Positions 1 to 8,737 of a stretch of 8,737 nt of DNA are shown in pieces. This DNA comes from Planctomycetota bacterium (lineage in GTDB: Bacteria; Planctomycetota; Planctomycetia; Pirellulales; Pirellulaceae), in NCBI GenBank assembly GCA_026692885.1, contig JAPLNJ010000417.1, forward strand, positions 1-8,737. The letters run 5' to 3'. The translations under genes and the position numbers were made by a program. How positions within the stretch are numbered: position 1 is the first letter of the stretch; the number at the start of each line of letters is the position of its first letter. The notes under the pieces were generated by a model, which did not search any database, was not told the origin of the DNA, and saw nothing but the letters and a program-made list of their open reading frames with translations.

Positions 1-31
1 TCGATGGAGACGACTTGATCCGAGCGGCCTT

Positions 32-144
32 GTAGGGTGGGCCAGAGCGGACCCTTTCCGACCGACCCAAGACCGTCACTCGACTCAGCCATCGTCGGAG
101 CACCTGACCTGCCAAGAACCGAGCGCCGGCCCACCAGGATCCGC
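32..144 (+). repeat. Left half of a composite repeat (outer plus inner arm)
   Basis: This stretch carries two blocks that recur near the other end of the window. The outer block (32-50, GTAGGGTGGGCCAGAGCGG) and the inner block (122-141, AGCGCCGGCCCACCAGGATC) lie 90 bp apart. In the complete element at 6885-7146 the same two blocks are 91 bp apart and are followed by their inverted complements. Here the right-hand complements are missing, so this is probably a truncated copy. I see no coding signal in it. Confidence 0.7.
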
Positions 145-500
145 TTCCCATCCGAATACTCTCCCGGCACGGAGCGTTCGATGGCCGCCATGCTGCTCTT
201 CGAGCGGATGGTCAGGCCGTGTTGATCGGCCCGGAACAGCACCGCGGGAAAGGGTCCGCGCGGCGACGTTCCGAGCGCATGGCGAAAGACGGGCCACAGT
301 TGCCGGGCTCGGCGCGGGTCTCCGACCCCGCCGAAATGGCCGACCGTCAGGTCTTCTCTTCATCTTTCTGCCATCAATCTTTCTGCCGATCGTTGGCATG
401 CACCTGATCCCAATCGATTCGGAGGGATTCACGTTCGATGGGGATGCATACAAGCCCGAATCGCCAGCGATTGGGATCTTTCCGACGATGGTTTTCAGGC
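145..500. other. Non-coding, decayed intergenic stretch
   Basis: No gene is supported here. The open frames on both strands look compositionally random and overlap one another, and none resembles a family I recognise. The only structure I see is a short tandem repeat: ATCTTTCTGCC occurs at 362-372 and again at 377-387, a 15-bp period. The GC-rich block around 315-345 resembles dispersed planctomycete intergenic repeats, but it has no second copy in this window to prove that. Confidence 0.5.
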
Positions 501-503
501 CAT

Positions 504-532
504 CTGACAAGACGTTTGGCGTGTGGTAGAAT
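504..532 (+). promoter_or_regulatory. Sigma70-type promoter of the toxin-antitoxin-like operon
   Basis: A -35 box CTGACA (504-509) is followed by a 17-bp spacer and a -10 box TAGAAT (527-532). Each box matches the consensus at five of six positions with ideal spacing. Transcription would begin near 539-541, about 31 nt before the ATG at 572. It is the best promoter-like sequence I found in the window, and it supports a start at 572 rather than the in-frame TTG at 542, which would sit at the transcription start. Confidence 0.65.
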
Positions 533-571
533 GACCCCAACTTGGCCACTGTTTGTACGCCGAGATTCGCA

Positions 572-856
572 ATGTCGCAGAAGGTCCTGAATCAGATTCG
601 TGACGCGGTGCTCGGCGGGCGATATGCCATGTCGGAGCATGCTTACGACGAGACGGACGAAGACAACTTGGATGTTTTGGACGTGGAAGCGGCGATTCTC
701 AGCGGGCGGATCGAGCAGACACTGACCCGCGACCTGCGCGGAACGCGATACGTGGTCGTGGGCACCGCCTGCGACGAATCAACGCCGGTGGCGGTGGTGG
801 TCCGGTTTGTCGAACGCCAGCAGTTGCTGGTCATTACCGTGTACGAAATCAAGTAG
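572..856 (+). CDS. DUF4258 family protein, probable toxin of a type II TA pair
   Basis: This 94-residue protein fits the DUF4258 family of small single-domain proteins, which are often found with zinc-finger or HTH antitoxins and are proposed to be RelE/BrnT-like RNases. What I see is an early SEHAYDE segment (about residues 21-27) resembling the conserved His/acidic start of the fold. It is followed by a helix containing VEAAILSGRIEQ and strands RYVVVGTA, VAVVVRFV and LLVITVYEIK, the usual closing beta hairpin. The ATG at 572 is preferred: it sits about 31 nt after a predicted transcription start, although no strong Shine-Dalgarno is visible. The next gene starts 10 bp after the stop, so the two are almost certainly co-transcribed. 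Toxin-first order matches mqsRA-like modules. Toxicity is inferred from family and context; no catalytic residue can be assigned with confidence. Confidence 0.8.
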   Translation: MSQKVLNQIRDAVLGGRYAMSEHAYDETDEDNLDVLDVEAAILSGRIEQTLTRDLRGTRYVVVGTACDESTPVAVVVRFVERQQLLVITVYEIK

Positions 857-866
857 CAGTCAAGCC

Positions 867-1100
867 ATGTACGATTTCACCTGCGAACACTGTGGCGGAC
901 AGGTCCAGGCGCGGCGCGTCGAGCGGGAAGCGTTGCGTCACAGAGGGAATTTTGTGATCCTGGAGGACGTGCCGATCGGCGTCTGCGACAAGTGCGGGGC
1001 GCGCTACTTTGACGCCTCGGTCCTCCGCCGAGTGGCCGAAGTTGGCCGGGGTAAGACGCCCAGCGAACGCACCCTGGAAGTCCCCGTCGGCCGCTACTGA
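867..1100 (+). CDS. YgiT-type zinc-finger protein, probable antitoxin
   Basis: This 77-residue protein has two CxxC pairs, C6/C9 (TCEHCGG) and C40/C43 (GVCDKCGARYF), the zinc ribbon of the YgiT/MqsA N-terminal domain. In MqsA this zinc domain binds and neutralises the toxin, while a separate C-terminal HTH binds the operator. Here the HTH is absent: after the second CxxC there are only about 34 residues, including SVLRRVAEVGRGKTP, which could form one helix. It belongs to the short YgiT-type proteins that sit next to DUF4258 genes. The start at 867 is the ATG immediately before the zinc ribbon, 10 bp after the DUF4258 stop. Without an HTH, autoregulation by the complex is uncertain. The family call is secure; the antitoxin role is inferred from the neighbour. 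Confidence 0.85.
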   Translation: MYDFTCEHCGGQVQARRVEREALRHRGNFVILEDVPIGVCDKCGARYFDASVLRRVAEVGRGKTPSERTLEVPVGRY

Positions 1101-1106
1101 AGGGCA

Positions 1107-1145
1107 TCTTCCCGTCACCTCGTCACCCGCTCACCTTGTCACCCC
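1107..1145 (+). repeat. Degenerate GTCACC short tandem repeat
   Basis: CGTCACC, CGTCACC, CTCACC and TGTCACC follow one another with a period of about 8-9 bp just after the YgiT stop codon. It is a short direct repeat without clear dyad symmetry and does not look like an intrinsic terminator. Confidence 0.5.
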
Positions 1146-1316
1146 GCCATCCTCCCGGCCTCGGCCAGTTCGCTGGCCACGGTCTGCCGCAGCACTTGGT
1201 TGTTGCGTAGCGACTGCGGCTCGATCCCTTGGACGATCTGCTCGGCCTGGGACACCAATTCGTCCAGCTCTTGGTTGGAACGGACATTGAGCTGGCGGAA
1301 GCGGCGGAAGAATCGC
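1139..1316 (-). pseudogene. Coding-looking fragment of unknown family, probably broken
   Basis: On the minus strand the frame reads through FFRRFRQLNVRSNQELDEL and then VSQAEQIVQGIEPQSLRNNQ before stopping at 1139. The amphipathic, Gln/Glu/Leu-rich composition and absence of low-complexity artefacts make it look like the helical tail of a real protein. Upstream in the same frame the sequence becomes the palindromic repeat at 1318-1364, so any gene has lost its 5' part or been interrupted there. I do not recognise the family. It could be a remnant of an alpha-helical or coiled-coil protein. Confidence 0.35.
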
Positions 1317-1317
1317 A

Positions 1318-1364
1318 AAACGGGGACTGGCTCCGACCAGGACGATCGGTGCCTGTCCCCGTTT
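1318..1364. repeat. Palindromic intergenic repeat (hairpin)
   Basis: AAACGGGGACTGGCTCCG (1318-1335) pairs with CGGTGCCTGTCCCCGTTT (1347-1364). The arms match at 16 of 18 positions around an 11-nt loop. It lies at the 5' edge of the minus-strand fragment at 1139-1316. It resembles REP/MITE-like hairpins that are scattered in planctomycete intergenic regions; that comparison is from memory. Confidence 0.7.
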
Positions 1365-1556
1365 ATCACGGTGTCCCGACACTTCTTCAGGTCGTCCAGA
1401 CAATCGGGCTTGCCGACCACGAGGTTCCGTTTGACGGCCGCGTCAACCCAGGAGGCCAGTTCGTCGTCGCTGCGGATAGTCGCAGACGAGAGGAGTTGCC
1501 GGGCTTTTCCGACGCCGAGGGGAAGCGCGGGCCACTTGTTCGGAGGTACCGGTCCA

Positions 1557-1709
1557 GTAGAGCGTGGGTTGCCGCCGCTGGCTTGCCAAGTGCTCGAGCG
1601 GCGTTTGCAGGGTCAGTCGGTCACGGAAATTGCCCGCGAATTGAGCCTCGCCCGCCAGGCCGTCTATCGGACGTTGGCCCTGTTGCAGCAGCGGCTGGCC
1701 AGGTCGTAG
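1557..1709 (+). pseudogene. C-terminal remnant of an ECF sigma factor (region 4)
   Basis: The frame ends with LPPLACQVLERRLQGQSVTE, then IARELSLARQAVYRTLALLQ and QRLARS. This is the helix-turn-helix of sigma70 region 4, which recognises the -35 box: a leading helix (LACQVLERRLQG), a first HTH helix (SVTEIARELS) and a recognition helix (LARQAVYRTLALLQQRL). Region 2, the core-binding part, is not found upstream in any frame; the same frame there is Ser/Arg-rich and random. The stop codon (1707-1709) falls inside the start of a GTAGCATGG-type repeat, so the repeat may have supplied or moved the stop. ECF sigma genes commonly precede Pkn-type kinase genes in planctomycetes, which suggests a former partner of the kinase downstream. 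I consider it non-functional. Confidence 0.6.
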
Positions 1710-1743
1710 CATGGCTCTCTGGAGTCGTGCCGTTCGACTCCGA
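1706..1743 (+). repeat. Left end of MITE-like repeat, truncated copy
   Basis: The sequence beginning GTAGCATGGCTCTCTGGAG and running through GCCGTTCGACTCCGA closely matches the left end of the 127-bp element at 5412-5538. No matching right terminal repeat follows before 1795. It overlaps the end of the sigma-factor remnant. Confidence 0.7.
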
Positions 1744-1794
1744 CCGGCCCGACAGCACACCATCGGCGACGGGTTCCGCAGCGTCGGGAAACGT

Positions 1795-1848
1795 CGTAGA
1801 ACGGATTTCAATCCGTTCAGTGAGGAGCGGAATAAATTCCGCTCTACG
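1795..1848. repeat. Double-hairpin intergenic repeat
   Basis: Two short palindromes lie side by side, AACGGATTTCAATCCGTT (1801-1817 region) and GAGCGGAATAAATTCCGCTC. Both are enclosed by an outer inverted pair CGTAGA (1795-1800) and TCTACG (1843-1848). It lies just upstream of the kinase gene, in a stretch open in the kinase frame, so it might be transcribed in the kinase leader. Confidence 0.7.
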
Positions 1849-1941
1849 AAGAAATGTGGAAAGAATTTTGTTACAGAATGGGGTGCCGCTCGCAATGTTC
1901 TTGGTGGGGCAGGAGTGTTTCACCGCAGCAGGCATTCACGA

Positions 1942-1947
1942 AAGGGA
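1942..1947 (+). promoter_or_regulatory. Ribosome binding site that fixes the kinase start
   Basis: AAGGGA lies 6 nt before the ATG at 1954. The reading frame is open upstream to an ATG at 1711, but that ATG lies inside a dispersed repeat and is followed by repeat-derived residues. The Shine-Dalgarno here, and the switch to family-like protein sequence right after 1954, make 1954 the likely start. Confidence 0.6.
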
Positions 1948-1953
1948 TCTCCC

Positions 1954-4900
1954 ATGACGAACATCCTCTTGTCAGCGCTGGCGGATCAGGACCGGGAAAC
2001 CGTCGAGTTCTGGTTGGTAGATTTCGAACAGTCCTGGACGGAAACCGCAATGGCGGAATGGGTTATGAGCCGTCTGCCGGTGCCGGGCCACCCCTTGCGC
2101 CGGCCGACCTTGGCCGAAATGGTCAAGGTGGATCTGGAACGACAGTGGCAGCAGGGACGCCAACTCCCGCTCGGCTCCTACTTGGAACGCTACCCGGAGC
2201 TGGATACCGCTCAAACGGTCACGGCTGATCTGCTGTTGGCCGAGTATCAGGTGCGCCGACAGGTTGGGGCGACGGCCGACCTGAGCGACTACACGCGGCG
2301 TTATCCGCGCCAGGCGGACGAGTTGGCGCAGTTGGTACAGCAAGCCGAGGCCGAACACGACACCTCGCGTCTGGCGGCAATGGAAACGGCCTTTCCCGTT
2401 GGCGAGTCTCCTCTCGCCCCAGCACCCCAGGCAACAGGGTCGGCTCCCGCTGCTCCCCTCGCCCCGGTACTCCGGAAAGAGGGGTTGGCTTCGGCTGCTC
2501 CCCTCGCCCCGGTACTCCGGGGAGTGGGGTCGGGGGTGAGGGGCCGCGACCTGCCCGAAACCTTCGGCCGCTATCGCATCCTGAAAAAGCTCGGCCAGGG
2601 CGGCATGGGCGCCGTCTACCTGGCGCAGGACACGCACTTGCAGCGACAAGTCGCCTTGAAAGTCCCGAACTTCTCGGCCCACGAGCAGCGCGAGATCGTC
2701 GAGCGGTTCCTGCGTGAAGCGCGGGCCGCAGCCACGATCCAACACCCGAACCTTTGTCCGGTGTACGACGCGGGCGAAATCCAAGGCGTGCCGTACATGA
2801 CCATGGGCTACATTGAGGGGCACTTGCTGTCCGCTTACATCCAGCCGGACAAACCGGCGCCGGAACGGCGGGCCGGGATGCTAATCCGCAAGGTCGCGTT
2901 GGCGTTGCACGAGGCCCATAGCCGCGGGATCGTGCACCGCGACCTGAAGCCCACCAACATCATCCTGAACCAGCGTGGTGAGCCGATCATCATGGACTTC
3001 GGCTTGGCGCGACGCGAGTCGAGCGAGGATGCCGCACTGACGCACGACGGCACGCTGCTGGGCACACCGGCCTACATGGCCCCCGAACAAGCGCGGCGCG
3101 ACTTGACCGCGATCGGGCCGCGCAGCGACCTCTACAGCCTGGGCGTCATCCTGTATGCCTTGCTGGCTGGCCGCCCGCCGTTCCAGGGCGACTTGGTCCA
3201 GGTGCTATCGCAAGTGCAGGTGGTTCCGCCGCCGCCGCCCTCGACGCACCGGTCGAACCTCGACCGGCGGTTGGAAGCGATTTGTCTGAAGGCCATGGCC
3301 AAGCGGCCCGAGGACCGTTACGCCTCAATGGCCGAATTGGCCGCCGCCCTGGGTGACTACCTGCGATGCGTCCCGGAATTGTCCGTGACCGGCGAAGCCC
3401 CGTTCGAGCCCGTCGACAGCTCTCCCCCCCGTAGCATGGCTCTCCAGAGCCGTGCACATGAAGCCACCCCCGACCGCCAGGCCTCCGCGCAAGCGAAAAA
3501 ACCGCAGTCCCGTCCTGCACCCCGAGCGGTGCCCAGGTCAGCCGCCTCGTCTACCGCGCCCGACGATGGCCCGTCGATCGTGTTGGCCATCCCGCCCGAG
3601 CCGGCGCCCGAGCCCGCATCACCGCCGATCGTGACGCTGGCGACGTACACTCAGCCCAGCCGCTGGCAACGAATTCCACCCATTTGGAAATGGACTGCGG
3701 CGGGTCTCGCGGGGTTTGGGCTGCTGTGCTTGGGGATCATGCTGTTGGTGTCCACCCCGCACGGGACGGTCAAGATCGAACTCAGTGACTCGCAGGCGCA
3801 AGTCGAAGTCAAGGTTGACGGCGACACGATCGACCTGGCCGGTCTCGACCAGCCGCTACGTCTCCGCGTCGGCGAGCACGGCATTGTCGTGACCGGCAAG
3901 GATTTTGAAACGGTGACGGATTCCTTCACTGTGACACGCGGCACCGAGATCCCCATGAAGATCACGCTGGTCAAAGTAGGTCAGGCTGTCCAGCCTGATG
4001 TTGCGCCCGCGCCACCCATCTCCCCTCGCCCCGGTACTCCGGGGAGAGTGGTCGGGGGTGAGGGGCCTGCCCCCGCCGTCTATCACGTCCAGCTCACCCC
4101 CACCGGCGCCAAGCTCTTGGTCAGCGGCGCAGGTGCCACCGTTGTTGCCCACGACGACCAGTGGACGGTGACGGTCGCCAATCCGGACGGCCAGCAGGAG
4201 ATCGAGCTGGTGGCGACCAAGAGCGGCTATGAGAGCCACGAACAGCAGGTCCGCCCAAAGCCGGGCGAATCGAGCACCTTGGCCATCCACCTAAATCCTG
4301 TGCCACTGCCGAAACCGGTCTTACCACCTGCGCCCCAGCCGGCGGTCTTCCAGGTGCAACTCGAACCGGCTGACGCGCGGTTGGTGGTCAGTGGCGCAGG
4401 CGCCTCCGTGGCTGGCGAAGGCGCGCAACGCACGGTGACCGTGGCCAAACCGGACGGCCAGCAGAAAATCACACTGCTCGCCTCCAAAGCGGGTTACCGG
4501 AACGACGAGCGCGAGCTGCTTCCGGTGGCTGCCGGGTCCCGGTCGTTGACATTCAAGCTGCAACTGGCGAATGCGCCGCCTTCCGGTCCTTCCATCACCA
4601 ATTCCATCGAAATGCGATTGGTGTTGATCCCGGCCGGCGAGTTCCAGATGGGATCACCGGCTTCCGACAGCGAGGCGTCCAGCGACGAGAAACCGCAGCA
4701 TCGGGTGCAGATCACCAAGCTGTTCTATCTCGGTATCTACGAGGTCACGCAGGCGGAATACGAACAGGTGATGGGCAGCAATCCCAGCAGTTTCAAGGAA
4801 TCGGGGGCGACGGCGCCGGTGGAGAATGTTTCGTGGGAAGACGCTCAGGCCTTCTGCCGAAAACTGTCCGCATTACCTGCCGAGGAAGCAGCCGGTCGCC

Positions 4901-5310
4901 GCTACCGGTTGCCGACAGAGGCGGAATGGGAGTACGCATGTCGTGCGGGCAGCACGACGAAGTACTCTTTCGGCGACTCGGATTCCGAATTGGCGACCTG
5001 CGCCTGGTACGACAAGAATTCGGGATCGAAGACGCATCCGGTCGGGCAGAAGCAAGCGAACGCTTGGGGCTTGTACGACATGCACGGGAATGTGTGGGAG
5101 TGGTGCGAGGACTGGTCGGGAACGTACGAAGCTGGTACAGTCACCGATCCTCAGGGTCCAGCTACAGCCGCGGACCGGGTGCTCCGGGGCGGCGGCTGGG
5201 TCCTCGTCGGCTGGGGCTGCCGGTCGGCGCACCGCAACGGGTACGGTCCCGGGTATCGGAACCAGAGCCTCGGGTTCCGGGTGGTCCTAGTCCGGTCAGA
5301 CGCGAGCTAA
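1954..5310 (+). CDS. Transmembrane Ser/Thr kinase with DGR-diversified FGE/lectin-fold tail
   Basis: An 1118-residue receptor-like Pkn2-type kinase. Residues 1-200 are the helical extension usual in planctomycete kinases, then a Pro/Ala-rich linker. The kinase domain (about 204-469) has glycine loop GQGGMGAV (214-221), lysine K236, HRD at 328-330, DFG at 348-350 and APE at 376-378, so it should be active. A second Pro/Ala linker leads to one membrane helix (about 580-600), putting the kinase inside and the C-terminus outside. Next come three PEGA-like beta segments (about 605-675, 710-782, 799-871), the last two similar to each other, then an FGE/C-type-lectin-fold domain (about 884-1113; MHGNVWEWCEDW, GFRVV). 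The paired catalytic cysteines of true formylglycine enzymes are absent, so this domain probably binds ligand. Residues 1070-1112 are the DGR variable repeat. Linkers contain inserted repeat DNA. Ligand and targets are unknown. Confidence 0.93.
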   Translation: MTNILLSALADQDRETVEFWLVDFEQSWTETAMAEWVMSRLPVPGHPLRRPTLAEMVKVDLERQWQQGRQLPLGSYLERYPELDTAQTVTADLLLAEYQVRRQVGATADLSDYTRRYPRQADELAQLVQQAEAEHDTSRLAAMETAFPVGESPLAPAPQATGSAPAAPLAPVLRKEGLASAAPLAPVLRGVGSGVRGRDLPETFGRYRILKKLGQGGMGAVYLAQDTHLQRQVALKVPNFSAHEQREIVERFLREARAAATIQHPNLCPVYDAGEIQGVPYMTMGYIEGHLLSAYIQPDKPAPERRAGMLIRKVALALHEAHSRGIVHRDLKPTNIILNQRGEPIIMDFGLARRESSEDAALTHDGTLLGTPAYMAPEQARRDLTAIGPRSDLYSLGVILYALLAGRPPFQGDLVQVLSQVQVVPPPPPSTHRSNLDRRLEAICLKAMAKRPEDRYASMAELAAALGDYLRCVPELSVTGEAPFEPVDSSPPRSMALQSRAHEATPDRQASAQAKKPQSRPAPRAVPRSAASSTAPDDGPSIVLAIPPEPAPEPASPPIVTLATYTQPSRWQRIPPIWKWTAAGLAGFGLLCLGIMLLVSTPHGTVKIELSDSQAQVEVKVDGDTIDLAGLDQPLRLRVGEHGIVVTGKDFETVTDSFTVTRGTEIPMKITLVKVGQAVQPDVAPAPPISPRPGTPGRVVGGEGPAPAVYHVQLTPTGAKLLVSGAGATVVAHDDQWTVTVANPDGQQEIELVATKSGYESHEQQVRPKPGESSTLAIHLNPVPLPKPVLPPAPQPAVFQVQLEPADARLVVSGAGASVAGEGAQRTVTVAKPDGQQKITLLASKAGYRNDERELLPVAAGSRSLTFKLQLANAPPSGPSITNSIEMRLVLIPAGEFQMGSPASDSEASSDEKPQHRVQITKLFYLGIYEVTQAEYEQVMGSNPSSFKESGATAPVENVSWEDAQAFCRKLSALPAEEAAGRRYRLPTEAEWEYACRAGSTTKYSFGDSDSELATCAWYDKNSGSKTHPVGQKQANAWGLYDMHGNVWEWCEDWSGTYEAGTVTDPQGPATAADRVLRGGGWVLVGWGCRSAHRNGYGPGYRNQSLGFRVVLVRSDAS
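2455..2543 (+). repeat. Two in-frame copies of a CCCCTCGCCCC repeat in the first linker
   Basis: CCCCTCGCCCCGGTACTCCG occurs at 2455 and again at 2500 inside the kinase gene. The second copy is complete (44 bp, 2500-2543, ending in TCGGGGGTGAGGGG). Both are translated in the same frame as APLAPVLR, and they lengthen the linker between the N-terminal extension and the kinase domain. Another copy lies at 4022-4065 in a different frame and a partial inverted one at 8583-8610. Confidence 0.85.
3431..3455 (+). repeat. MITE-like terminal repeat inside the kinase gene
   Basis: GTAGCATGGCTCTCCAGAGC plus CGTGC is the same terminal sequence found at 5412 and, in slightly altered form, at 1706 and 8093. 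Here it is translated in frame as SMALQSRA, in the linker between kinase domain and membrane helix. Only the left end is present. Confidence 0.85.
3976..4000 (+). repeat. Short hairpin repeat in the kinase extracytoplasmic linker
   Basis: GTAGG is followed by the perfect palindrome TCAGGCTGTCCAGCCTGA (3981-3998; two 8-nt arms, 2-nt loop). It is translated as VGQAVQPD just before the second CCCCTCGCC-type insertion. It resembles a hairpin repeat common in planctomycete intergenic DNA, recalled from memory. Confidence 0.6.
4022..4065 (+). repeat. CCCCTCGCCCC repeat in the kinase gene, second reading frame
   Basis: A 44-bp copy nearly identical to 2500-2543, but read in another frame (SPRPGTPGRVVGGEG instead of APLAPVLRGVGSGVRG). 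This shows that the DNA, not a protein motif, is what is repeated. It lies between the first and second PEGA-like segments. Confidence 0.9.
5161..5290 (+). other. DGR variable repeat (VR) at the kinase 3' end
   Basis: This 130-bp end of the kinase gene aligns without gaps to 6593-6722. There are 24 differences. At 20 of them the downstream copy has A, and this copy has G, T or C instead. The other four are C/T exchanges. This copy never has A where the template lacks it. The changes alter the surface-loop residues of the lectin fold: template Asn becomes V, L, G, H, Y, D or S. The unchanged 3' part, GGGTTCCGGGTGGTCCTAG (5272-5290), is G/C/T-rich and would be the initiation-of-mutagenic-homing (IMH) site; it differs from the template end by one base. 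Confidence 0.95.
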
Positions 5311-5411
5311 GGGGGGAGTTGGCCGGAGCGCAGCCGGGAGCGTAGGCAGGGTAGGCGGAAAAGGGCGCAGCCCCCGCCTGCCAGGCCGTAGCGGAAGGCG
5401 CAGCGCAGGCC
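5311..5411. other. Kinase 3' flank without a gene
   Basis: This GC-rich flank starts with GGGGGGAG directly after the stop and holds no gene or clear terminator. GCCGTAGC/GGCCGTAGC-like words recur shortly before the MITE-like element. Confidence 0.4.
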
Positions 5412-5538
5412 GTAGCATGGCTCTCCAGAGCCGTGCCGTTCGACTCCGATTCGCTGAACGGTCCACGTTTCTGCCGGACTCGGACGCGTGAGGCGCTTGG
5501 CGGAGCGTATCGCACACGGCTCTGGAGAGCCATGCTAC
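5412..5538. repeat. MITE-like element, 127 bp, with terminal inverted repeats
   Basis: The left end GTAGCATGGCTCTCCAGAGC (plus CGTG) is the inverted complement of the right end, CACGGCTCTGGAGAGCCATG (plus CTAC). A second element of 129 bp lies at 8093-8221; both have TTCGACT after the left end and GCGTATC before the right end. It carries no gene. It lies about 120 bp past the VR, where other DGRs may carry a hairpin, but its second copy elsewhere argues for a dispersed repeat. Confidence 0.85.
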
Positions 5539-5837
5539 GAGGAGGCGGGGCGACTCTGACCAGCGAATGCGTTCACGATGGCCGCCGGGTTCGGAGGGGA
5601 AGGCGGAGCGGGCCGGGAGGGGGTCGAGCAGCAAGTGAACAGATGTTCCAATCGGCAGTTAAGGTGTACAGACGCACCTTTCCTGTTTGCCGATCTGGCC
5701 GAAGCAAAAGGGGGTCGGGAGTGGGGTGTTTAGTTTGTCTGATTTTGCCTTGAATTGGTGTTTTCCCGAATGCCTGATGCTGTTCCATTCTGGTTGGCTT
5801 CGCGGAGTGACTACGAAATCAAGGATGACCGAGTGGT
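5539..5837. other. Intergenic stretch without a supported gene
   Basis: No convincing open frame on either strand. The part from about 5640 to 5830 is noticeably richer in A+T than the rest of the window. I checked it for an Avd-like or reverse-transcriptase frame and saw none. Confidence 0.5.
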
Positions 5838-5959
5838 CCCTGGGGCTACCCCTGATCGTGATCCACAGGTTTCCGCCCCAACGGGGCAGCCACATAACGG
5901 CCCCTGGGGCTGCCCCTGATCGTAATCCTCCGGTTTCCGCCCCAACGGGGCAGCCATAA
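5838..5959 (+). repeat. Two tandem copies of a ~60-bp unit
   Basis: Units at about 5838-5897 and 5902-5959 share CCCTGGGGCT, CCCCTGATCGT, GGTTTCCGCCCCAACGGGGC and AGCCA(C)ATAA. Each contains a small GCCCC/GGGGC hairpin. The second unit is also the outer part of the large inverted repeat at 5902-6241, so one arm of that element appears to be partly duplicated. Confidence 0.75.
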
Positions 5960-6241
5960 ATCAGCCCAGCGGCAGAGCGGAGCGGCGTAGCCGCGTAGCG
6001 CCGCCCTGGGTTATGCGAGAATGGAGCACACCAGCCCTGAAGGGGCGAAACAAGCCTTGGCCGCATCGGACGAACGAGGCGTGTGGGAGGAACCGATTTG
6101 TTTCGCCCTTTCAGGGCTACCGTGCTGCATCGAACCCGTACCCAGGGCGTCGCTCTGCGGCTGTCGCCGCGACGCTCTGCCCTGGGCTGATTTGTGGCTG
6201 CCCCTATCGGGGCGAAAACCCGTGGATCAGGATCAGGGCTT
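5902..6241. repeat. Large imperfect palindrome, arms of about 140 bp
   Basis: The left arm (about 5911-6053) and right arm (about 6098-6239) are inverted copies around a 44-nt centre. Matching blocks from outside in are CCCTGATC, CGCCCC...GGGGCAGCCA, AAATCAGCCCAG, CGCCCTGGGT and AGCCCTGAAGGGGCGAAACAA, the last with one mismatch. The arms contain smaller hairpins. Frames through it give low-complexity peptides typical of false ORFs. A transcript would fold into a very long stem. I take it as a dispersed planctomycete repeat, though only one copy is in this window. Confidence 0.8.
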
Positions 6242-6362
6242 GTCTCGATCTGTCATGGAACGCTGCCGAACGGGCTGGACCCTCGGAGAGACAATCCGAG
6301 AGTTTGGCGTCTTGGGCGCGGATTGGGGTGTCGAAGGCGGGCCGCGGGATGTCTCTACGCCC

Positions 6363-6500
6363 GACCTCCACGAGCTGGCCTCGTGGGTGAAGAAGATTGA
6401 CAGGCTAAGCGGTCACCGTTTCCCCGTCCCCCCTGGTTGCGGCGTTGCCGGGTTCTAGCTCGACAATCTCATTCACCCACGAGGCAAGCTCGTGGGGGTC
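6363..6500. repeat. Inverted duplication of a coding-like 39-bp block
   Basis: 6363-6401 and the reverse complement of 6462-6500 match at 34 of 39 positions. Each arm, read in its own direction, encodes D(L/P)HELASWV(K/N)(K/E)I, and the differences include third-position changes, as if both came from a real gene. The plus-strand arm continues a frame from about 6255 (TGWTLGETIREFGVLGADWG and onward) that looks protein-like but matches no family I know. A transcript would form a long hairpin with a 60-nt loop, about 90 bp upstream of the template repeat. Confidence 0.65.
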
Positions 6501-6560
6501 TCGCCGATGCACGTGCTTCGCTTTTACACGTACTCCGGGGGTGCGGAGTTGGCATTTCCG

Positions 6561-6586
6561 CCGGGCTGTGTTAGAACACTGCCCGG
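6561..6586 (+). other. Hairpin directly upstream of the template repeat
   Basis: CCGGGCTGTGTT (6561-6572) and AACACTGCCCGG (6575-6586) pair at 11 of 12 positions; the innermost pairs would open to make a loop. It ends 6 nt before the TR homology begins and has no following T-run, so it is not an ordinary terminator. It could be a structural part of the template RNA, but no evidence beyond position supports that. Confidence 0.45.
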
Positions 6587-6592
6587 TGAGCG

Positions 6593-6722
6593 GCCAAAGC
6601 CACGAACCGGGTGCTCCGGGGCGGCAGCTGGAACAACGACGGCAGGAACTGCCGGTCGGCGAACCGCAACAGGAACGATTTCGGGAATCGGAACCAGAAC
6701 AACGGGTTTCGGGTGGTCCTAG
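6593..6722 (+). other. DGR template repeat (TR)
   Basis: A 130-bp near-copy of the kinase 3' end on the same strand, 1432 bp downstream. It is A-rich at key positions: ten AAC codons and one AAT among 43 codons, giving the Asn-studded sequence SWNNDGRNC, RSANRNRND and NRNQNNGF typical of FGE-type DGR templates. 20 of its 33 adenines are replaced in the VR. Homology begins near 6593 and stops at 6722. The frame is open from just after a TGA at 6587-6589 to a stop near 6869, but the sequence past 6723 no longer resembles the kinase, so I do not call it a gene. In a working DGR this would be transcribed as RNA and copied by an error-prone reverse transcriptase. Confidence 0.93.
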
Positions 6723-6884
6723 CTCGCGCAGGGCGGCGGATGTCGCCCCATGACCGACCCGGCCGCTTTCCCGTCCCCCGGGCGTATTCCGCACAGGGGC
6801 GAAATATTGTCCTTGCGCCGCCCGGTGCTAGTAGTCGAAGCGTACGAACGCTCCGGGCGGCGTTTTGTTGAATTGCGCCACAGC
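6723..6884. other. TR downstream flank, no gene recognised
   Basis: In many DGRs the reverse-transcriptase gene follows here. I read all frames of this flank and found no YxDD-like motif or reverse-transcriptase-like sequence. It ends abruptly at the composite repeat that starts at 6885. Confidence 0.5.
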
Positions 6885-7146
6885 GTAGGGTGGCGCCAGA
6901 GCGGGCACGGCGAGAAAACTCTCCATTGGGTAACAACGGTGATTTGCCGGTTGACTATCCAAGGCAAAACAACGGAGCGCCGGCCCACCAGGATCCGCGG
7001 AGTATTACGAAGGACGCGCATCGCACGAGATAGCGAGTCGATCCTGGTGGGCCGGCGCTGGTCTGCCGCGGATTTCGGTCCGCCGGGATGGCCGCGCTGT
7101 TGGTTGGGACTGTTGGTTGCCGTTGGTCCGCTCTGGCCCACCCTAC
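6885..7146. repeat. Composite nested inverted repeat, 262 bp
   Basis: The outer arms GTAGGGTGG(C)GCCAGAGCGG (6885-6904) and CCGCTCTGGCCCACCCTAC (7128-7146) are inverted copies with one inserted base. The inner arms AGCGCCGGCCCACCAGGATC (6976-6995) and its perfect complement (7040-7059) enclose 44 bp. The left half recurs at 32-144. No transposase is inside, so it looks like a non-autonomous mobile element or dispersed repeat. Its right edge abuts the point where the Rpn homology begins. Confidence 0.85.
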
Positions 7147-7812
7147 GGCATCAGGCCACAGTTCGGTTACTTCGCCCGACTGCACGAGAAGTACGATCTG
7201 CCGGTGTACCCGATCGCGGTGTTTTCGTACGATGCGCCGCAGCGCCCGGAACCGAACTCGTATTGCGTCGAGTTTCCGGATTTATCTGTGTTGACCTTCC
7301 AGTTTCGGGCTGTGCAGCTGAACCAATTGGCTTGGCGCGATTTCGTGGACCGGACGAACCCGATCGCTGCGGCCTTGATGGCCAAGATGCACAGGGAGCC
7401 CGGTGAGCAGGCGCGGGTCAAATTGGCTTGTCTGCGGATGCTGGCCCAACTGCAACTAGATCCCGCCCGGCGGGAATTGATTTCCGGCTTTGTCGATGCG
7501 TACCTGTGCCTTACAATGCAGCAGGAGCAGGAACTTGAATCCGAACTGCAACAGATCCAACCCCAAGAGCGGGAGGGCGTGATGGAAATCGTGACGAGTT
7601 GGATGAGGAAGGGCCTGGAGCAAGGCCTGGAACAGGGCGAGCGGACGGTCGTCCTGCGTCAGTTGCGCAAGCGGTTGGGCCTAGTCAGCCGAGAGACAGA
7701 AGACCAAATCGAAGCATTGTCGAAGGAGCGGCTCGAACAGCTTGAAGAAGCGCTGCTCGATTTCAGGCGTCGCGACGATCTGGAGGCGTGGCTGCAAGCA
7801 CACGGCTCCTGA
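7147..7812 (+). pseudogene. 5'-truncated Rpn-family (PD-(D/E)XK) nuclease gene with DUF4351-like end
   Basis: Rpn proteins are recombination-promoting DNA nucleases, formerly annotated as PDDEXK transposases. The frame contains the middle and end of the family: FGYFARLHEKYDLPVYPIAV, then FSYDAP, VEFPDLSVL, QLNQLAWRDF, NPIAAALMAKM, a helical stretch (LDPARRELISGFVDAYL), VMEIVTSWM, GLEQGLEQGE, and a DUF4351-like tail (VLRQLRKRLG, LEEALLDF, LEAWL). The N-terminal catalytic part with the acidic PD-(D/E)XK residues is missing. The homology begins immediately after the composite repeat at 6885-7146, and I find no N-terminal half upstream of it. The frame is open back to a TTG at 7117, but the first in-frame ATG is deep in the domain. 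I infer loss of the 5' end at repeat insertion or by associated deletion. About 220 residues remain of a usual 280-330. Confidence 0.85.
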
Positions 7813-7815
7813 ACG

Positions 7816-8074
7816 TAACGGCCGGTGGCACGCCGGACAACGGGCAACCAGCCAACATTGATGTTCACGGCAAACGGGCATCGCGCGCAGGGACCAAGCC
7901 AGCCGCTCGTACGGAGTCGGGTCCTGCTTCAAGCATGTCGGGCAGACCGGAAACATTGGCTGGCAGCTTGCCGGCGTCGGCCAGCAGAGGACGCAGCCGG
8001 TGCGGCCCTGCGTATCCCATGGCCGCCGCGGTGCGACGTACCAGACACACCAGCGACTCTCCCGGCAGTGGCAC
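7816..8074 (-). pseudogene. tniQ: Broken TniQ-like transposition gene
   Basis: TniQ proteins help choose targets in Tn7/Tn5053-like transposition. On the minus strand, 8074 starts MPLPGESLVCLVRRTAAAMG, the typical first helix region of TniQ. After about 39 residues the frame shifts at position 7956 to one reading FPVCPTCLKQDPTPYERLAW followed by SLRAMPVCREHQCWLVARCP and ACHRPL, the TniQ zinc-binding module (CPxC...CxxH...CPxC). In intact TniQ these two parts are separated by several dozen residues, so both an internal deletion and a frameshift are likely. The recognisable part ends at 7816, tail to tail with the Rpn frame that stops at 7812. No TniA or TniB partner is in the window. The gene symbol is used for family only. 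Confidence 0.7.
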
Positions 8075-8092
8075 TACGCGCGCGGGCAGGGC

Positions 8093-8221
8093 GTAGCATG
8101 GCTCTCCGGAGCCGTGTGGTTCGACTGTGACGAGTCAACCCGCTCAAGATGTCCTGCCCCCGGCTCGAAGGTCCAGGACGCGGTAGGGCGTATCCTGCAC
8201 GGCTCTGGAGAGCCATGCTAC
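8093..8221. repeat. MITE-like element, 129 bp, second copy
   Basis: The left end GTAGCATGGCTCTCCGGAGC and the right end GGCTCTGGAGAGCCATGCTA(C) are inverted copies. It shares ends and the internal words TTCGACT and GCGTATC with 5412-5538, but the rest of the interior differs. It sits just upstream of the broken TniQ gene start. Confidence 0.85.
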
Positions 8222-8241
8222 GTGTTGGTCGGTTGCCTTGG

Positions 8242-8292
8242 CCGGCCGGTGTTTAGCCCCGCTGGCGCGAGGCGACAGGCCGACACCGGCCG
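8242..8292. repeat. Short inverted repeat CCGGCCGGTGT / ACACCGGCCG
   Basis: CCGGCCGGTGT (8242-8252) pairs with ACACCGGCCG (8283-8292) around a 30-nt loop. It lies between the MITE-like element and the next palindrome, as one of several adjacent hairpins. Confidence 0.6.
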
Positions 8293-8310
8293 TCCGGGTT
8301 TGGTCGGCGG

Positions 8311-8443
8311 CCTTTGGAGTGCGGTGGCTCGACACCGCTTTGGCTATGCCTTTCTTTGGAACAACGGCCAGCCCGGCCATGCGGCGGACACCGAGAACGT
8401 GAAAGCGGTACGCAAAGCGGTGTCAAGCCACCGCACTCCAAAG
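8311..8443. repeat. MITE-like palindrome with about 31-bp arms
   Basis: The left arm starts CTTTGGAGTGCGGTGGCTCG and continues ACACCGCTTTG (8312-8342). The right arm CAAAGCGGTGTCAAGCCACC plus GCACTCCAAAG (8412-8442) is its inverted copy with one mismatch. The roughly 70-bp interior has no gene. It is a separate repeat family from the GTAGCATGG element. Confidence 0.85.
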
Positions 8444-8444
8444 C

Positions 8445-8580
8445 GCCGCGGCTGGCAAGATAGAACCGGCCGGCCAAGTCGACATTCGCCAGGCTGGATG
8501 TTTCGGCCAGCGGAAGCGTCTCGTCGAGCTTCTTCAGCATGCCACAGAACTCCCGCTGACCTTGCGGCGAGCGCCAATCC
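8445..8580 (-). pseudogene. Possible coding fragment between repeats, family unknown
   Basis: On the minus strand the frame reads WRSPQGQREFCGMLKKLDET followed by LPLAETSSLANVDLAGRFYL, which looks more like real protein than the surrounding false frames. It is bounded on both sides by dispersed repeats (8583-8610 and 8311-8443), with no start or stop of its own. It may be a remnant of an interrupted gene. I do not recognise it. Confidence 0.25.
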
Positions 8581-8582
8581 GA

Positions 8583-8610
8583 CCCCTCACCCCCGACCCC
8601 TCTCCCCGGA
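8583..8610 (-). repeat. Inverted partial copy of the CCCCTCGCCCC repeat
   Basis: CCCCTCACCCCCGACCCCTC plus TCCCCGG is the reverse complement of the right part of the 44-bp repeat at 2500-2543 and 4022-4065. This is the non-coding copy, in intergenic DNA. Confidence 0.75.
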
Positions 8611-8737
8611 CAGATTGTCCCACTTTGTTGGATGGATGGGGGGTTGGGGTAAGAAACTGGTCTCCAGCGACTTGGGGTTTTCGGGCAGAGTATGGGTGCA
8701 AAGAACTGCCCCCCCAAATCCGGAGATCGACAAGGAT
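8611..8737. other. End of window, no feature seen
   Basis: A G-rich stretch (about 8630-8650) and otherwise unremarkable sequence. No open frame is supported. A gene entering from beyond the window cannot be excluded. Confidence 0.4.

Follow-up and report, generated by a model that had tools for sequence, protein, structure and literature searches.

We report here a diversity-generating retroelement (DGR) that retains its template and its target but has no reverse transcriptase (RT) gene in cis; it lies in an 8,737-nt contig of a Planctomycetota bacterium (JAPLNJ010000417.1, positions 1 to 8,737), the whole of which is referred to below as the window. A template repeat (TR) and a variable repeat (VR), the latter at the end of a kinase gene, form a DGR TR/VR pair, and the locus is a DGR without a cis RT, the enzyme being lost, acting in trans or omitted by an assembly misjoin. 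In related planctomycete DGRs the order is target-HRDC-RT-TR, and we consider, at a probability of about 0.77, that the window holds a locus of this HRDC type from which the HRDC and RT genes are gone from between VR and TR.

The repeat pair and its kinase target

A preliminary description of this DNA had reported two 130-bp same-strand repeats, gapless in alignment, with 24 differences of which 20 fall at adenines of the downstream copy (the TR). This proved exact (5161-5290 and 6593-6722), as did its statements that every VR adenine faces an adenine in the TR and that the other four differences are C/T exchanges (three T>C and one C>T, from TR to VR). A separate repeat search recovered the pair, extended to 139 nt at 80%. 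The earlier argument that chance would not place the differences in this way is upheld by a hypergeometric probability of 2.2e-11 for at least 20 of 24 differences falling on 33 adenines among 130 TR positions. From TR to VR there are 9 A>G, 7 A>T and 4 A>C changes, all 20 being at the first or second codon position of the target gene, and a stop codon can be reached through an A substitution in only one of the 43 TR codons. Beyond the last changed adenine (TR position 6702) 19 of 20 bases are identical, giving a constant stretch like an initiation of mutagenic homing (IMH) sequence; where a DNA hairpin just past the VR might be expected, the predicted fold of 5276-5400 scores no better than its shuffles (z 0.03).

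Members of the FGE family vary at these positions anyway, which could suggest two diverged paralogous FGE gene ends and no DGR at all. That candidate was refuted by the adenine bias, 20 of the 24 changes being at the adenines of one copy; moreover an RT tail, not an FGE domain, precedes the TR and a DGR-type RNA flank follows it, so that we give the paralogue explanation practically no weight.

The target gene encodes a Ser/Thr kinase, one predicted transmembrane segment and an FGE/C-type-lectin domain. Pfam reports Pkinase (E 1.2e-45, residues 208-458) and FGE-sulfatase (E 1.2e-51, residues 890-1112), residues being numbered in a translation from 1951, one codon ahead of the ATG at 1954; the gene start is uncertain because the frame stays open back to an ATG at 1711. 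The kinase motifs HRDLKP, DFGLAR and GTPAYMAPEQ are present, and a single strongly hydrophobic segment (Kyte-Doolittle) spans residues 582-602. On the analogy of PknB-like kinases, the kinase would lie inside the membrane and the sensor outside. The VR closes the coding sequence of this target, whose last domain has, by sequence, the predicted C-type-lectin fold usual in DGR targets. When the FGE part was compared with solved structures, the top PDB sequence match was TvpA of Treponema denticola (2y3c, E 3.3e-40), likewise an FGE-type C-type-lectin variable protein of a DGR; unlike the window target, the matched chain is of 294 residues and has no kinase. The FGE catalytic cysteine pair is not retained: in the alignment with chain u88902, whose two cysteines we take to be that pair, one stands opposite a diversified Leu and the other opposite a Cys.

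Across 222 homologous segments, mean entropy was 3.55 bits at the 16 residues with a consequential TR adenine versus 1.03 bits at 19 others, a contrast that alone is no proof because the FGE family varies at these residues anyway. Among 392 segment pairs of at least 75% identity upstream, differences were found at 4978 of 6272 predicted variable versus 1134 of 7448 other positions, some of these pairs having no VR differences. No close relative of the target is among the matches listed, the best-scoring having 50% identity over residues 1-880. P0124 and P0125, two sister proteins that share 49% and 48% identity with the window protein across 88% of residues 1-880, are 93% identical to each other over the 150 residues preceding the VR core. 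Within the core, 12 of the 16 predicted variable residues differ between them, as does 1 of the 19 others. A comparison of the kinase protein with 146 genomes gave four matches at E up to 1e-90, in the kinase part only. As a separate observation, there are multi-FGE proteins (P0293, P0002, P0041 and others) whose intra-protein copies differ mainly at DGR-type variable positions.

An RT stub and a structured flank on either side of the template

When genome contigs were scanned with the translated TR, 56 loci emerged, some of the matches being VRs and not TRs. An RT, or RT piece, akin to the RTs of the other loci was found at 35 of the 56, and the motif G..SQ with YxDD, searched for by regular expression, at 31. 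In 30 TR/VR pairs from 24 cis-RT loci the differences lie mostly at TR adenines, with a non-A mismatch of 0 to 11.4% (median 1.3%; counted unfiltered over 105 nt per pair, 72 in one, with L028 at 9/79 included).

A related locus, L082, is on contig C133 of genome G012 (MAG PLM2.Bin2, a metagenome-assembled genome); this contig, read as both L069 and L082, is a second contig of the L045 genome and matches window 6502-6866. Like the window it has a kinase-FGE target with a VR at the 3′ end, and its TR with both flanks is 69% identical to the window over 379 columns; its VR and TR differ by 20 substitutions, 16 at TR adenines, and a 3-column gap. Unlike the window, it has HRDC and RT between target and TR: the kinase-FGE gene, an HRDC open reading frame (ORF), two ORFs with RT sequence and the TR all share one strand. 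With L082 and 20 further regions fetched, we examined 21 relatives, several on short contigs: RT sequence is present in 15, an HRDC match lies upstream of the RT in 11, and 8 of these 11 also have an FGE target upstream. Genome G582 also differs from the window in having an RT: its locus L106 reads HRDC-RT-TR, and its locus L122 is a kinase-FGE gene (a 1391-codon ORF) with a VR near the contig end. Since target and TR are on separate contigs, that L122 and L106 form one DGR is our inference; all 20 substitutions between the L122 VR and the L106 TR are at TR adenines, with one 3-nt gap in addition. The G582 FGE domain is 60% identical to that of the window, and its RT tail belongs to the three that most resemble the window stub. 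The kinase-FGE targets of L082 and L122/L106 count towards the HRDC-type reading of the window.

Immediately before the TR, the window match to L082 begins inside the 3′ end of the L082 RT gene, at 6502, two bases past a palindromic repeat (6363-6500). When the RT tails of L082, L104 and L106 were combined in a hidden Markov model (HMM), it picked out window 6517-6594 at E 6.9e-11, and the segment ranked second among 210 in the window had 0.31; a broad HMM of 14 RT tails again places this stub top of the 210, at E 0.049. L082, L104 and L106 were picked because they also match the window as DNA ahead of the TR (starting at 6502, 6549 and 6544), so the DNA alignment of 6502-6590 to the L082 RT 3′ end, equalled by none of 500 shuffles, is the less selected support for the stub. 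The earlier conclusion that the VR was diversified by a DGR needs dividing: the writing of the VR from a TR of this kind is supported, and the RT in the window is reduced to a C-terminal stub of about 26 codons.

No larger RT sequence emerged. A profile built from 13 RTs, run with filters off on all six frames of the 8.7-kb window, gave a best match of only E 0.58, and at six control loci outside the profile it gave E 4e-26 to 1e-135. Among the scanned ORFs of the slot that holds HRDC and RT in relatives, Pfam found no family better than a weak E 0.08, and nine further window ORFs had no Pfam match to Avd or HRDC. Apart from the stub, the 8.7-kb window thus shows no DGR-type RT in cis, and neither the scanned ORFs nor the slot DNA gave evidence of an accessory gene (Avd or HRDC). 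The distance between VR and TR is 1432 bp, which fits the VR-RT-TR order (1214-2485 bp in 16 pairs) and not VR-TR-RT (291-312 bp in 4 pairs); 10 pairs are arranged otherwise.

Downstream of the TR, the alignment of the window flank to L082 is as good in none of 500 shuffles. The flank, presumably the protein-binding part of the template RNA, contains a hairpin whose outer stem adjoins [A/G]GUA on its 5′ side and GAA on its 3′ side. These agree in sequence with the bulged-G (sarcin-ricin, loop E) motif, a three-dimensional form that the hairpin may adopt. Folding of 6723-6880 alone gave a z of -1.56. A first scan detected the hairpin in 31 of 56 TR 3′ flanks, that of the window among them (25 were without). 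Of 1120 shuffled flanks 3 had it, as did 2 of 52 upstream controls. The scan missed L016, which a later pattern scan recovered, and L056 was outside it.

From the 30 non-window hits, 19 were hand-picked (GTAG motif, inner part of 8-12 nt) as rows of a covariance model, R1. In these 19 aligned hairpins 94.7% of cells pair; shuffles give 61.9%, and sliding the alignment gives no more than 47.0%. Both sides have changed in 104 cells, where shuffles give 32.4 and sliding 30 or fewer. Pairs with a both-side change number 13, which is not distinctive, since 33 of 500 shuffles reach that figure. Pair counts of this kind are biased towards structure because the rows came from a scan demanding a stem, and the position and specificity of the hairpin are the less biased evidence. 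In the window, the window-free R1 hits once (36.3 bits, E 1.1e-7). At E up to 1 it also hits 14 of 46 other sources, 15 times in all; 14 of the 15 hits sit 3′ of a TR on the TR strand, one of them (L116) being a training row. A simple motif pattern, run over 1,979,724 strand-bases of 78 loci, gave 34 hits; 31 lie on the TR strand 204-317 nt past the TR match start (237 in the window), a count that speaks for specificity and not for independent discovery, the pattern having come from the same loci. The loci with hairpin hits include some of cyanobacteria, Accumulibacter, Chlorobiaceae, Treponema, Bacteroidales, Hydrogenedentota and planctomycetes. A structured RNA feature, drawn from relatives, is thus present 3′ of the window TR; the hairpin is common to several phyla and may reveal templates without an RT.

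The DGR of Bordetella phage BPP-1 likewise has a structured spacer after its TR, which recruits bRT-Avd, according to excerpts of PMC12875486, and which, in work cited there, folds into an intricate structure. Unlike the relatives of the window, BPP-1 uses the accessory protein Avd and not HRDC, and in its spacer R1 finds no convincing hairpin (7.5 bits, E 1.2). Among the literature matches listed there was no published description of the hairpin; it may already be in print, because PMC12875486 cites work on the BPP-1 spacer structure.

Table 1. Coordinates of the DGR features in the window, with strand and basis of assignment
Feature	Position	Strand	Basis or remark
Target gene: Ser/Thr kinase, one predicted transmembrane segment, FGE/C-type-lectin domain	1954..5310	+	
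FGE/C-type-lectin domain	4618..5286	+	Pfam PF03781, residues 890-1112
VR	5161..5290	+	3′ end of target gene; 20/24 differences from TR are TR adenines
Slot holding HRDC and RT in relatives	5311..6500		several palindromic and tandem repeats here
Palindromic repeat, 45-nt arms, 84% complementary	6363..6500		right end abuts start of RT homology
RT gene stub, about last 26 codons	6517..6594	+	tail HMM and DNA alignment to L082
TR	6593..6722	+	DNA matches to window 6500-6870 in 32/396 genomes of the order of the L082 genome
Conserved 3′ flank of TR, presumed protein-binding part of template RNA	6723..6866	+	alignment to L082; four-locus alignment A2
Hairpin with [A/G]GUA...GAA internal loop	6816..6862	+	covariance model R1

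Accounting for the missing reverse transcriptase

In known DGRs an adenine-unfaithful RT copies the TR into the VR, and we carry this mechanism over to the window. Its receptor-like kinase ends with a lectin-like sensor, and the final 130 bp of the gene were rewritten at TR adenines, as the differences show, presumably by DGR retrohoming of cDNA from the TR. The HRDC and RT genes would be gone from this locus, leaving the RT 3′ end, the TR and its structured 3′ RNA flank; the RT would have been lost later than the last full copy, or would be missing through misassembly. The VR may have been frozen since that loss, or the RNA may serve, in trans, a different DGR RT that the cell encodes, two outcomes that would look alike in this contig.

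The TR itself offers some indication of timing. Two adjacent non-A differences (6680-6681) give a Phe codon in the TR and Pro in the VR; Pro stands at this site in 175 of 222 homologous same-length segments (from 103 proteins), so it seems that the TR, not the VR, is derived here, and therefore that the TR was altered later than the last full copying. In the 105-nt core the non-A mismatch of the window is 3/79. We rejected TR decay as proof of RT death, since 9 of the 30 cis-RT pairs show an equal or higher rate, and for the same reason see no clear TR decay. Three other loci have rates above that of the window: L005 at 13/78, L040 at 13/79 and L033 at 18/73. The L033 genome has no match to the RT profile at E 1e-20, and no DGR-type RT is among the RT-profile matches examined in the L005 and L040 genomes. 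At L005 (9671-10276, Brasilonema) and L040 (10001-10596, Nostoc), TR/VR pairs with a hairpin carry many non-A mismatches; both are likely to be older RT-less DGRs. The low mismatch of the window weakly favours recent loss or use in trans over an old fossil.

This leaves us to consider either: that the DGR is dead, its RT lost and its VR frozen; or that it is an intact non-autonomous DGR, in which target and template RNA are kept and diversified by an RT encoded elsewhere. We regard the first as quite possible, though short of an even chance: there is an RT stub and no RT in 8.7 kb, the TR has its own substitutions, a broken TniQ-like gene is nearby, and L005 and L040 resemble older RT-less pairs, but the RNA hairpin bears no sign of decay and the non-A mismatch is low compared with L005, L040 and L033. 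The second we hold a little more tentatively. It is in keeping with the retention of TR, RT 3′ end and 3′ flank, with a hairpin that fits the model from other loci, with a non-A mismatch resembling that of the 30 cis-RT pairs, and with the genomes G011, G004 and G001, which hold DGR-type RTs on stretches away from their RT-less loci L043, L006 and L002 (the RT of L002 and L043 may in fact be in cis, both loci being near contig ends). Trans action has also been proposed for DGRs of Thiohalocapsa PB-PSB1, in excerpts of PMC10907252. Less easily accommodated are the three non-A core differences between TR and VR, and a last full copy that predates the Phe change in the TR.

Several results weigh against the view that HRDC and RT are gone from this locus. 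The absence of the RT is an absence from the 8.7-kb window, and an assembly misjoin that skips HRDC-RT is possible because the slot is rich in repeats. A DNA test for an HRDC remnant at 5600-5840 failed, 234 of 500 shuffles being at least as good, and slot 5311-6362 compared with the HRDC-RT DNA of a relative scored 18, which 5 of 200 shuffles reached; three non-A mismatches in the core also count here, though 9 of 30 cis-RT pairs equal or exceed that rate. A translated HRDC match at 5681-5767 (E 3e-4) was discarded as a remnant, being in a frame unlike that of the relative's HRDC and failing the DNA test.

The misjoin, or a structural variant of a mixed population, would mean that the usual locus has HRDC and RT and that a repeat joins the target to the RT tail. 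In its favour, the RT homology from 6502 adjoins the palindromic repeat, the window has several repeat families, G582 has its VR gene (L122) where one contig stops and its HRDC-RT-TR (L106) on a different contig, and intact-RT variants are known for two disrupted DGR loci of Thiohalocapsa (excerpts of PMC10907252). The contig, however, is without Ns and runs through several different repeats across 1.2 kb, and we judge this explanation improbable.

Neighbouring elements, related systems and significance

Other elements of the window are described here in their own right. Searches of Rfam, phages and viral contigs with window DNA gave nothing useful. On the minus strand at 7684-8074 is the remnant of a TniQ-like transposition gene (Pfam TniQ 7684-7956, E 4e-7), with an N-terminal piece in another frame, up to 8074, seen by eye. 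A DUF4351 protein (7117-7812, plus strand, E 3e-17) looks by eye to be cut at its N-terminus and has a repeat at its 5′ end. A CGTAGCATGGCTCTCCAGAGCCGTG-like repeat occurs in six copies (within 1704-1730, 3429-3455, 5410-5539 and 8091-8222), one inside the kinase gene, including two inverted pairs about 80 bp apart; its pattern had no match in 392 genomes of the phylum searched. The kinase gene also has repeats of 45-48 nt (2408-2545 and 4020-4067), with an inverted copy at 8580-8610. At 542-1100 on the plus strand a DUF4258 protein comes first and then a small zinc-ribbon protein, whose match to MqsA is weak and below the cut-off; the two look like a toxin-antitoxin-type pair.

Kinase targets are described for cyanobacterial DGRs, where, in excerpts of PMC7517822, serine/threonine kinase-C-type-lectin (CLec) proteins and remote targets are known. 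Like the window protein, these have an N-terminal Ser/Thr kinase, a C-terminal lectin domain and a VR near the 3′ end; unlike it, they belong to another phylum, and those excerpts describe targets away from the DGR and no RT stub beside a TR. The Thiohalocapsa PB-PSB1 DGRs, as excerpted from PMC10907252, share FGE and kinase domains among their targets and include incomplete loci, mobile elements being tied to DGR locus duplication and divergence; they differ in organism, in being known from population data, and in the intact-RT variants of the two disrupted loci. DGRs, FGE/CLec targets, kinase targets (PMC7517822), incomplete loci and trans action (PMC10907252) are already known, as far as the excerpted sources go, and what is new, as far as searched, is a planctomycete-like contig in which an RT stub adjoins a template unit of intact appearance, together with the hairpin signature. 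No report of planctomycete kinase DGR targets was among the literature matches listed; one may exist.

A large DGR survey, by its own statement in the excerpted text of PMC8144416, misses DGRs whose VR is away from the RT, and RT-less templates and targets are therefore probably undercounted. We offer, as a speculation that we think less likely to hold than to fail, that non-autonomous DGRs exist as a target gene and an RNA unit made up of RT 3′ end, TR and hairpin flank, which would be maintained and diversified in trans, and that the [A/G]GUA/GAA hairpin is a cross-phylum DGR RNA recognition element by which they could be found genome-wide. The hairpin marks the 3′ flank of many TRs across phyla with few stray hits and would permit orphan templates to be counted; such counts would let the question of trans function be asked, namely whether templates can use a borrowed enzyme. 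The receptor-like kinase with its hypermutated sensor, as we read it, adds planctomycete-type cases to the cyanobacterial kinase targets.

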